From the NCBI GenBank assembly GCA_013791955.1, contig VMSW01000007.1:992001-1056000 (forward strand): DNA of 64,000 nucleotides, written 5' to 3'. Made by a program: the position numbers and the translations under genes. The notes under the pieces are model-generated. The model was not told the DNA's origin, searched no databases, and worked only from the letters and a program-made list of their open reading frames with translations. This document shows, in pieces, positions 1 to 54,084 of this stretch. The stretch comes from Propionicimonas sp. GTDB lineage: Bacteria > Actinomycetota > Actinomycetes > Propionibacteriales > Propionibacteriaceae. Numbering within the stretch: position 1 is the first letter of the stretch; each line of letters starts with the position of its first letter.

Positions 1-271
1 TGACGGCCCGGCTGCGCTTGAAGGCGGTGCCGTAGTTGAAGCTCACCTGGCCCTCAATGCCAAAGGTGTCCGCTTCGGCGTTGAAGATGTGGGCCAGTTC
101 GGCGTTGCGCAGCAGGGCCTTGGTCGGGATGCAGCCGACATTGAGGCAGACGCCACCCCACCACTGCTTCTCGATGATGGCCACCTTTTTGCCCAACTGG
201 GCTGCACGGATGGCGGCCACGTACCCTCCCGGGCCCGCGCCAAGTACGACAACGTCGAAGTTCTGGGTCAT
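1..271 (-). CDS. lpdA: Dihydrolipoamide dehydrogenase, N-terminal part
   Basis: This is the first 90 codons of a flavoprotein disulfide reductase that runs off the left edge of the window. The N-terminus has the FAD-binding motif [17 protein letters not shown], followed by the redox-active disulfide segment [16 protein letters not shown] with both active-site cysteines. These are diagnostic of the E3 subunit of the 2-oxoacid dehydrogenase complexes, which reoxidises dihydrolipoyl groups with NAD+ in the cytoplasm. Mycothione or glutathione reductases share the disulfide motif, but the NVGCIPTK context fits Lpd best. A TAAAGT box ends 7 bases before the ATG and there is no Shine-Dalgarno sequence, so the mRNA is probably leaderless. 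Confidence 0.93.
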
Positions 272-278
272 GGGCGCC

Positions 279-284
279 ACTTTA
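279..284 (-). promoter_or_regulatory. -10 box of leaderless lpdA promoter
   Basis: TAAAGT (read on the minus strand) lies 7 bases upstream of the lpdA ATG at 271. This puts transcription initiation at or next to the start codon. No clear -35 element is seen. Confidence 0.55.
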
Positions 285-349
285 GACGACTTGCCAGCCA
301 CCATGCGCAGTGCCCTCCCCTCCCCTGGCCCGCCTTTGGGGCTGGGGTT

Positions 350-369
350 CATATCCCATATGAGATATG
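350..369. promoter_or_regulatory. 20-bp palindrome, candidate operator of the HTH-MurA gene
   Basis: CATATCCCATATGAGATATG reads the same on both strands except for one symmetric pair of mismatched positions. It covers the most upstream possible start codon (ATG 360) and overlaps the TATGGT box at 366-371. It is AT-rich in a GC-rich genome. The adjacent gene encodes an XRE-type helix-turn-helix, so autoregulation is the simplest inference. Confidence 0.5.
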
Positions 370-52116: not shown

Positions 52117-52122
52117 AGCCTA
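52117..52122 (-). promoter_or_regulatory. -10 box of leaderless nitrilase-like gene promoter
   Basis: TAGGCT on the minus strand ends 6 bases before ATG 52110, the same box and spacing as at lnt. Confidence 0.55.
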
Positions 52123-52139
52123 GAGGCGGCCGGCACCAG

Positions 52140-54071
52140 TCAGTCCATGACCTGGGTATCAACCCGCACCCGGATCGCGGCCTCCTTGCGGGCCGCCCGG
52201 ACGGCCGCGACCGCCTTCACTGCGGCCACCAACTGCCCGGCTTGGGCCAGGGCGCAGCGCAAGGTGAGTCGGTGCAGTTCTTCTTCGCCGCCGACCTCGA
52301 ACGGACCGAGCACGGTGACGCCCTCGGGCACTTCCAGGGCGGCAGCCACCGCAGTCAGCGCGTCCAGATTGCCTTCGATGGTGACCATCTTCACCGCTGG
52401 CGGGAAGCCAGCCTCGGTGCGCTGGGCCAACTCACCTTCGGCGTAGCCCACTGGGTCGAGACGCACGAGCGCCTGCACCTCGCGAAGGCCGGGTTGCCCG
52501 ACCACCAACACGGTGCCGCCAGCTACCGCCGGACGCACTTTGGCCACCACCGCTAGCCAGCGACGCAGCGATTCCTCCCCGGCCCGCAGATCGGCCCGGC
52601 CCAGCATCAGCTCGGCGTCCAATAGGACGGCCGCCGCGTAGCCGCCCGCCGCGTCTGGGGCCGCGCCCGGAGTGGCCAACACCAGCGCCGGCTTGTCGGG
52701 CACTTCCGGAAGCCGCCGCTCGGCACTGGACTGAATCACACTCACCCCTGGGAAGGCTTTGCCCAACTCCTCAGCGGTCCGAGAGACGCCAATCACCGGG
52801 CTACGCAGCCGCCGCCCGCCACACCCCGGGCAGCTCCACGCGGTCAGCGGCGGTCCACACCACCGACAGGTCGGGCCACTGCCGCCGTCGGTGAGCGGCT
52901 GCCCGCAACGTCCGCATTTGACCGGCTCGCGGCATTGCGCACACACCAGCAGTGGAAAATAGCCAGCCCGCGGCACCTGGACCAGCACCGGCCCGGAGAT
53001 AAGACCGGCACGGACGACCCCGAAAGCCTCCTTCGGCAGCCGGGTCACTTCGGCCAAGGGGTCGCGGGCGCTGGAACCGGCCGTCGGCCGCACCGCTGCA
53101 CAATCGAGGCGAGTCTGGGTGGGCGGCAACTCCAGGGCAGCTAGCCAGCCCCGGGTGACCAACTGCTGCACCTCTGCGGTGCGGTTGTGCGCGGCCAGCA
53201 GCAACGCGCAGCCCTCCCGATGGGCCCGCAGCGCGGCCACCTCGCGGGTGTGCCAATACGGCGCGTGCGGCTCGGCATAGGAATCGTTGCCGTCATCCCA
53301 CAACGCAATCAGACCGAGATCGGCCACTGGTGCGAACACTGCAGCCCTGGTGCCCACCACCAGCTTCACCTGCCCGCGGGCCGCGGCCAAGAAGCTTCGG
53401 TAGCGCGCTGACGGTCCGGCGTCCGCGCTGAGCACCGCATAACTGCCTGCACCGAACCTGGCCGCACAGGCCGCGTCCAGGCGCTCCAGGTGGACCGCAT
53501 CCGGCGCCAGCAGCAGAGCCCCTCGGCCCTGCGCCAGCGACACCGCGGCGGCCTCAGCGAAGCCTGCCGCCCAATCGCCGATAGTGCTCGGCGTCGGCGC
53601 CACCGTCCAGGCGGCCCGCAGCCGCCCGTCCGCGCCTAGGGCAGCCAGGAACCGGTCACCGCCGGGGTAGGCGCCCAGCACCGTGCCAGCGACCGGTTCG
53701 GTTCGCGGGGCGGGACGAGGTGAAGTGCTGGCCTTTTCGGTGGCGGCGTGGCGCGGCGGCACCGCCGCGCGAACAACGTCAGCGAAGCTCCCGGCGTAGT
53801 GATCGGCGACATCACGCACCAAGGCGGCCACCGCAATGGTCAAGACCGGCTCGGGTGAAACCACTTTGACCAGCTCAGCGAGCTCAGTGCGCTCGCCTGG
53901 CTCAGTGCGGGCCAGCACGAAACCGTCGCGTAGCCGACCAGCGAATCGCACCTTCACTCGCACCCCGGGTTGGGCCGATTCGGCCAGGGCAGCTGGCACG
54001 GCATAGTCGAAAGGTCGATCGAGGTTTGCCAACGGCACCTCCACCGCCACCTTTGCCACCGACCGCTCCAT
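52140..54071 (-). CDS. priA: Primosomal protein N' (PriA), degenerate helicase
   Basis: The 643-residue protein is the actinobacterial PriA-like primosome protein, which helps load the replicative helicase at stalled forks. It starts VAKVAVEVPLANLDRPFDYAVP and keeps the zinc-binding cysteine cluster (LLVCAQCREPVKCGRCGQPL and TCRWCGPPLTAWSCPGCGG). Helicase motifs are lost: no GxTGSGKT is visible, and the DEEH box position reads LWDDGNDSY. Such ATPase-dead PriA is usual in actinobacteria. ATG 54071 is set by a TAGCAT box 7 bases upstream. Confidence 0.93.
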   Translation of the reverse strand: MERSVAKVAVEVPLANLDRPFDYAVPAALAESAQPGVRVKVRFAGRLRDGFVLARTEPGERTELAELVKVVSPEPVLTIAVAALVRDVADHYAGSFADVVRAAVPPRHAATEKASTSPRPAPRTEPVAGTVLGAYPGGDRFLAALGADGRLRAAWTVAPTPSTIGDWAAGFAEAAAVSLAQGRGALLLAPDAVHLERLDAACAARFGAGSYAVLSADAGPSARYRSFLAAARGQVKLVVGTRAAVFAPVADLGLIALWDDGNDSYAEPHAPYWHTREVAALRAHREGCALLLAAHNRTAEVQQLVTRGWLAALELPPTQTRLDCAAVRPTAGSSARDPLAEVTRLPKEAFGVVRAGLISGPVLVQVPRAGYFPLLVCAQCREPVKCGRCGQPLTDGGSGPTCRWCGPPLTAWSCPGCGGRRLRSPVIGVSRTAEELGKAFPGVSVIQSSAERRLPEVPDKPALVLATPGAAPDAAGGYAAAVLLDAELMLGRADLRAGEESLRRWLAVVAKVRPAVAGGTVLVVGQPGLREVQALVRLDPVGYAEGELAQRTEAGFPPAVKMVTIEGNLDALTAVAAALEVPEGVTVLGPFEVGGEEELHRLTLRCALAQAGQLVAAVKAVAAVRAARKEAAIRVRVDTQVMD

Positions 54072-54078
54072 GGCCGGA

Positions 54079-54084
54079 ATGCTA
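54079..54084 (-). promoter_or_regulatory. -10 box of leaderless priA promoter
   Basis: TAGCAT on the minus strand ends 7 bases before ATG 54071. It is the same hexamer and spacing as at ubiA (24065). Confidence 0.6.

Follow-up and report, generated by a model that had tools for sequence, protein, structure and literature searches.

Leaderless genes with a TAnnnT box close to their start are a described feature of actinobacteria. Zheng et al. 2011 (PMC3160421) took TAnnnT about 10 bp upstream as the mark of a leaderless gene and found about 20% of genes to be of this kind, in 86 of 89 Actinobacteria. In M. smegmatis, mapped 5' ends showed two dominant box spacings, C at position -1, A or G at +1, no -35 element and 24% leaderless, and the leaderless set is partly conserved with M. 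tuberculosis (PMC6448022), whose own leaderless transcriptome agrees, with about a quarter of genes leaderless (PMC3898074). In P. (Cutibacterium) acnes, TAnnnT has its centre at -9 relative to the mapped transcription starts, start codons coincide with such starts, and leaderless genes begin with AUG in 68%, GUG in 29% and UUG in 3% of cases (PMC3848588). In Deinococcus-Thermus, TANNNT directly before open reading frames (ORFs) drives leaderless expression, according to the authors' experiments (PMC12340547). The present analysis concerns a 64-kb stretch of the genome of a Propionicimonas sp. (C1:992001-1056000, 65% G+C, called the window; the genome has 3.10 Mb in 11 contigs), where a sequence-only reading had noticed sixteen genes with a TANNNT box 6 or 7 bases before the start codon.

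The adjacent-box leaderless genes found here are a further instance of the known actinobacterial kind. Their middle bases are uninformative, like those of the TA-led genes of Zheng et al., and there is no difference in kind between the two. In M. smegmatis and M. tuberculosis the leaderless starts come from 5'-end mapping, whereas in the studied genome they are inferred from sequence. The P. acnes starts were measured as well, and a -35-like GnTTnG stands at translational-machinery genes there (PMC3848588), in contrast to the studied genome, which shows no -35 signal. The adjacent -10 motif of Deinococcus-Thermus has a like layout in a different phylum.

The boxes are very probably -10 elements that place the transcription start on the start codon, which would make the mRNAs leaderless. 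Five observations lead to this reading: an excess of boxes at just 6-7 bases, their conservation in orthologs, C at -1, no Shine-Dalgarno (SD) pairing, and flat profiles in two small non-actinobacterial controls.

Enrichment and conservation of the boxes

Genes were called with our own hexamer-model script in the window and in 20 further 20-kb stretches, together 464 of the genome's 3,104 kb. ATG, GTG and TTG were allowed as starts and candidates less than 45 bases from a stretch end were dropped, which left 394 genes with candidate starts. By distance d from box to start codon, TANNNT occurs 37 times at d=6 and 32 times at d=7, compared with about 3.5 times at background distances. The 69 boxed genes are 18% of the sample, or about 16% after background subtraction. 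The sequence-only reading had spoken of pervasive leaderless transcription; the leaderless part is supported, and pervasive is too strong a word for about one gene in six.

That reading had also proposed counting TANNNT by distance and against shuffled upstream sequence, and the count gave the sharp peak at 6-7 that it expected. The 20 stretches alone have 32 boxes at d=6, 23 at d=7 and 1-5 at each of d=0-5 and d=8-20. In the window, 14 of 55 called genes are boxed at 6 or 7, where shuffling the upstream bases 500 times gives a mean of 2.8 and a maximum of 7. For the 20 stretches, 55 of 339 genes are boxed and the shuffles have a mean of 14.7 and a maximum of 26. Deep in-frame start-like codons were used as a control and show no such peak: among 1271 in the window there are 0 boxes at both d=6 and d=7, and among 7356 in the sample there are 1 and 12, with a mean of 5.0 per distance. 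A window richer in boxes than the rest of the genome is not established by these counts (14/55 vs 55/339, Fisher p=0.12). Boxed genes stand at the head of transcription units in 45 of 65 cases and unboxed genes in 167 of 302, a weak trend (p=0.052).

The window was also scanned for TANNNT at spacings 5-8 before every ATG, GTG and TTG of its ORFs. All sixteen boxes of the sequence-only reading are present at the spacing it gave; the scan recovered 15, and that of lpdA, an incomplete gene here, was confirmed separately. The scan added a box at pyrF (58702) and matches at two TTG codons, 16148 and 43437 (spacing 8), which may be chance. The candidate -10 boxes are:

279..284, minus strand: TAAAGT, lpdA, 7 bases before ATG (start 271-269); the gene crosses the left window edge
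366..371, plus strand: TATGGT, HTH-MurA fusion, 6 before GTG 378; the longest ORF begins 114 codons earlier
2986..2991, plus strand: TAGAGT, GDPD phosphodiesterase, 7 before GTG 2999
8369..8374, minus strand: TAGGCT, lnt, 6 before GTG 8362
12694..12699, plus strand: TAATCT, AI-2E family transporter, 6 before ATG 12706
24000..24005, minus strand: TATGGT, type III polyketide synthase (PKS), 6 before GTG 23993; divergent from ubiA
24065..24070, plus strand: TAGCAT, UbiA prenyltransferase, 7 before ATG 24078
26205..26210, plus strand: TATGGT, Eco57I-type methylase, 7 before ATG 26218
34198..34203, plus strand: TAGATT, membrane protein, 7 before ATG 34211
36991..36996, plus strand: TATAAT, DUF222/HNH, 7 before ATG 37004, followed by GAACGTATG, half a LexA-like site
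47490..47495, minus strand: TATTCT, metH, 7 before ATG 47482
47508..47513, plus strand: TAAGGT, PAC2 (name given by the sequence-only reading), 7 before ATG 47521
49066..49071, minus strand: TAGGGT, rpe, 7 before ATG 49058; its TAG also ends the upstream gene, 49069-50391
51316..51321, minus strand: TAGAAT, fmt, 7 before ATG 51308; its TAG is the stop of the nitrilase gene
52117..52122, minus strand: TAGGCT, nitrilase family, 6 before ATG 52110
54079..54084, minus strand: TAGCAT, priA, 7 before ATG 54071
58709..58714, minus strand: TAGGCT, pyrF, 6 before ATG 58702; absent from the earlier list

Most of the protein names rest on matches over curated cut-offs: the MurA-type enzyme with its HTH domain, GDPD, lnt, the AI-2E transporter, the type III PKS, UbiA, the Eco57I-type methylase, DUF222/HNH, metH, rpe, fmt, the CN-hydrolase and pyrF. 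The PriA match is below its NCBIfam cut-off. The PAC2 protein has a weak NCBIfam match only (19 bits, cut-off 199), so the name remains that of the sequence-only reading. The lipoamide dehydrogenase model aligns with the 90-amino-acid N-terminal piece of lpdA from model position 1, at residue 4 of the piece, and the match is below the full-length (NCBIfam) cut-off. The gene at 378-1901 encodes a MurA-like enzyme fused to an N-terminal HTH domain.

Nine boxed window genes were queried in 30 loci: 16 PAC2 loci (15 from genomes of the same genus and 1 from a family genome) and 14 loci from other sampled genomes. Matches starting past query residue 40 or near a contig edge were removed beforehand, and a start codon with a box counted if it lay between 90 bases upstream of where the start was expected and about 60 bases downstream of the match. 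Seven genes had orthologs, 109 in all, of which 89 carry a box at a spacing of 6 or 7; a few of these boxes are loose (for example offsets -90, -39 and -30). As a control, 12 unboxed neighbours were queried; the 10 that had orthologs show a box in 5 of 108. At 20 other distances there are 40 matches for the orthologs of boxed genes and 12 for the control genes. By gene, the box is present in 18/25 orthologs of metH, 22/29 of PAC2, 18/18 of rpe, 12/14 of fmt, 5/7 of the nitrilase, 13/14 of priA and 1/2 of pyrF. The 34211 membrane gene and HNH had no orthologs in the 30 loci; elsewhere, a 91% identical ortholog of HNH (L251) has the identical box. Of the sixteen listed genes, ortholog evidence therefore covers seven (HNH, metH, PAC2, rpe, fmt, nitrilase and priA). 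Among orthologs the middle letters of the box vary, spacing changes between 6 and 7, and start codons change between ATG and GTG. One genus genome, G007, is nearly identical to the studied genome at PAC2.

Among the 25 metH matches, four have an identity of only 32-34% and may be something other than orthologs. They come from family and order relatives (L115, L117, L129, L139). Identity is 54-99% for the loci of the genus and 61-65% for six further loci of the class. The low values hint at a different or replaced methionine synthase in those four.

Boxes were above background in all 16 other genomes of the class that were surveyed, at 5-27% of genes; the weakest two, with 100 kb each, have 4 of 79 and 7 of 69. 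A further 20 genomes have boxes at 48 of 334 genes, and the corresponding count is 131 of 644 for 40 named actinomycete loci. The latter belong to a survey in which 59 of 80 named loci were used (40 actinomycete, 9 cyanobacterial and 10 proteobacterial, one of them titled only Proteobacteria), and all 40 centre on metH. There is no peak at 6-7 in the cyanobacterial loci (104 genes) or the proteobacterial loci (132 genes); these profiles are flat, and the samples are small.

Signals at the boxed starts and competing explanations

In the proposed mechanism, RNA polymerase, presumably with the housekeeping sigma factor, would read the TA...T of the -10 box without a conserved -35. Transcription would begin at the purine after C, 7-8 bases downstream of the box, and the 5' end of the mRNA would be AUG or GUG. 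Ribosomes would then initiate from this 5' end without SD contact. About one gene in six would be expressed in this way, and the remaining genes would have leaders or lie inside operons.

Among 70 boxed starts, C stands directly ahead of the codon in 59% at d=6 and in 73% at d=7. Base tables of these starts, judged by eye without a formal motif search, have no positional signal for a -35. TTG is the start codon in 4 of 69 boxed genes and in 39 of 325 other genes. The anti-SD duplex energy of the 69 boxed genes has a median of -3.8, and random internal sites have -3.7 (p=0.69); pairing is weaker in the boxed genes than in the 325 others (p=0.0003). Energies below -7 kcal/mol occur in 12% of boxed genes, 17% of random sites and 34% of the others, and an SD-type 4-mer precedes some candidate start in 64% of sampled genes. 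The sixteen listed genes range from +1.0 to -7.6 kcal/mol. The claim that none of them has an SD sequence is largely correct: it holds for the group, and two members, PAC2 and rpe, are below -7 kcal/mol, PAC2 having GGAG near its start.

The boxes were also said to settle ambiguous start codons. Fifteen of the listed genes have their complete ORF within the window, and for 8 of them the start indicated by the box lies inside a longer ORF. Ortholog boxes are mostly at offset 0, and the indicated starts of lpdA, fmt and rpe match the N-termini of the family models, so the claim is reasonable. In the studied genome, a box is a practical pointer to start codons overlooked by a longest-ORF rule, and it marks likely promoters within tight gene clusters.

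Three other explanations were weighed. Chance combined with selective reading of box-bearing starts has in its favour that TANNNT is loose, that candidate starts are many and that shuffling yields some boxes by itself; yet no shuffle of the window came near 14 of 55, the boxes are conserved in orthologs and the internal codons show no peak, and this explanation can practically be dismissed. The TA of the box might instead be merely an upstream stop, TAA or TAG, kept at a fixed distance for translational coupling in operons, with no promoter at all. A stop does share its letters with the box at rpe and fmt in the window, and at 5 of the 69 boxed genes in the sample. The other 64 boxes share no stop, however, and 23 of the 69 begin TAC or TAT. 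The peak remains in a set of 500 genes with the upstream neighbour on the opposite strand, which have 84 boxes at d=6, 56 at d=7, 20 at d=8 and 2-11 at other distances below 20. At the gaps that would let a stop form part of the box, T is the sixth base in 14 of 21 cases, compared with 12 of 93 at gaps 11-40. Stop codons are not tenable as a general explanation of the boxes, and the coupling account is very improbable.

Ordinary -10 promoters with very short leaders of 1-5 bases, or true start codons slightly downstream, are an unlikely alternative. A box at 6-7 bases fits a transcription start 0-2 bases ahead of the codon, and the M. smegmatis authors also call leaders of up to 5 bases leaderless (PMC6448022). 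C at -1, however, suits initiation on the codon itself, and the spacing stays at 6 or 7 in orthologs even where the start codon has changed.

Several points beyond the shared stops weigh against leaderless initiation at the boxed codons or limit it. Leaders of 0-2 bases look alike by sequence, so the +1 at the first codon base is a predicted position. A purine opens the codon in 94% of boxed starts, which follows largely from the choice of ATG, GTG and TTG as permitted starts. The anti-SD at the 3' end of the 16S rRNA is intact, so other genes can use SD and both routes are open to the cell. Counted over the whole genome without regard to genes, TANNNT-N7-ATG occurs 158 times and the reversed pattern 125 times; with so little excess, the enrichment is visible only at gene starts. 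Some genes were missed or given wrong starts by the gene-calling script (ubiA was missed), and between one and three of the sixteen listed boxes could be chance.

Boxes shared with stop codons, and facing boxes of divergent genes

A leaderless start needs little DNA and so leaves room for an overlap with the stop of a preceding gene, with an operator or with a divergent promoter. Couplings of this kind are predicted for gene 49069-50391 with rpe, the nitrilase gene with fmt, metH with PAC2, and SOS-controlled DUF222/HNH genes. Whether leaderless promoters in Actinomycetia are regularly fused to their neighbours' signals, with both boxes shared with stops (gap 9-10) and starts enclosed by LexA sites, is an evenly balanced question.

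In tight operons, the stop codon of the upstream gene would supply the TAA or TAG of the next -10 box across a gap of 9-10 bases, and a leaderless start would lie inside the operon, as proposed for rpe and fmt. The TA of these two boxes doubles as the upstream stop, so their case rests on the T at the sixth base and its conservation. An open frame of 100 codons or more ends at the TAA or TAG of the box in 14 of the 18 rpe orthologs and, among the 12 boxed fmt orthologs, in 8. Across 17 genomes and 1,717 genes, TAA or TAG stops number 7 at gap 9 and 14 at gap 10, and the remaining gaps between 4 and 40 have 0-6 each; the excess of sixth-base T after the gap 9-10 stops of these genomes, given above, has p=1.5e-6. 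In 20 fresh genomes the sixth base is T in 5/5 vs 4/16 (p=0.006). In the named actinomycete loci the counts are 4/9 vs 14/58 (p=0.24), which is not significant alone.

The available parts of PMC6448022 mention no sharing of stops, and the words 'stop codon' do not occur in those of PMC12340547 and PMC3898074; the literature search was thin. Stop-sharing and LexA-enclosed starts look less familiar than leaderless genes themselves.

The start codons of metH and PAC2 are divergent and 38 bp apart, and their facing boxes are 12 bp apart (window 47480-47523). The two promoters would be expected to be mutually exclusive. The 38-bp length is kept in 10 genus loci (window, L104, L182, L183, L185-L189 and L191); L192, L193 and L196 have a spacing of 49 bp, and L195 one of 31 bp. 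In L184, L190, L194 and L197 the facing-box pattern was not found at the corresponding place. As a general class the layout was rejected: both sides are boxed in 22 of 250 divergent pairs, with 19.6 expected if the sides were independent, so double-boxed pairs are at chance level. Within the genus, the 38-bp layout is conserved.

LexA sites around predicted leaderless starts

SOS control of HNH genes has been described in M. tuberculosis (PMC8151990, PMC4181829), where a refined SOS motif, MKWMTCGAAMRYWTGTTCGA, already permits ATG at the corresponding place (PMC4181829) and LexA itself is translated from its transcription start (PMC2897130). Neither the literature searches nor the available parts of PMC9380542 gave any statement of a start codon inside a LexA box. 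In the arrangement proposed here, a LexA box would enclose a leaderless start, so that operator, +1 and start codon share letters, often at DUF222/HNH genes beginning MFE or MFD. If this is true, such genes would be repressed at +1, and leaderless translation would occur only after DNA damage.

The combined pattern TANNNT-N-GAACNNATGTTC has one match in the studied genome, outside the window at C1:106003-106021 (L211). It is present in 15 of 60 relatives, with none for a reversed control, and in 90 of 393 genomes of the class vs 6 with the reversed control (the 6 counted by eye). When the gap between box and LexA site was varied from 0 to 14 in 148 genomes, 52 of the 150 matches listed had a gap of one base, 23 of two and 11 of zero, and the other gaps had 1-10 each among the matches listed; the reversed control gave about 20 in total, by eye.

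In 40 loci (L202-L211 and L220-L249), 18 proteins that would start at the LexA-enclosed ATG were scanned. Ten match DUF222, one matches DNA polymerase III alpha and PHP domains, and seven, three of them short, have no match. Nine were picked for their long frame. The idea that the ATG of the pattern is always a start codon was rejected, as all nine loci shown (L231-L233 and L236-L241) have their long frame in another frame. There a short leader containing a GGGAGG-like site precedes the long frame, which includes a MRVLGVDPGLTRCG-type sequence that we take to be RuvC.

The HNH gene of the window (37004) was considered as a LexA-controlled SOS gene, which is not supported: no complete GAACNNNNGTTC lies over its start, only the left half GAACGTATGAGC. 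The ortholog L251 has the same half-site at its start codon, and a complete match to the LexA pattern begins 16 bases inside the window gene. Eight DUF222 loci of the studied genome (E <=0.001) include none with a full LexA box over a TANNNT-boxed start. DUF222/HNH relatives were compared at 20 loci (L250-L269), the window's own included. A long frame is preceded by a box at 12 of these loci, and by GAACNNATG at no others than the window locus and that of the near ortholog.

A further observation was made at G000 C1:915446-915499 (L200), where two LexA-like boxes lie 42 bp apart shortly before an ATG.

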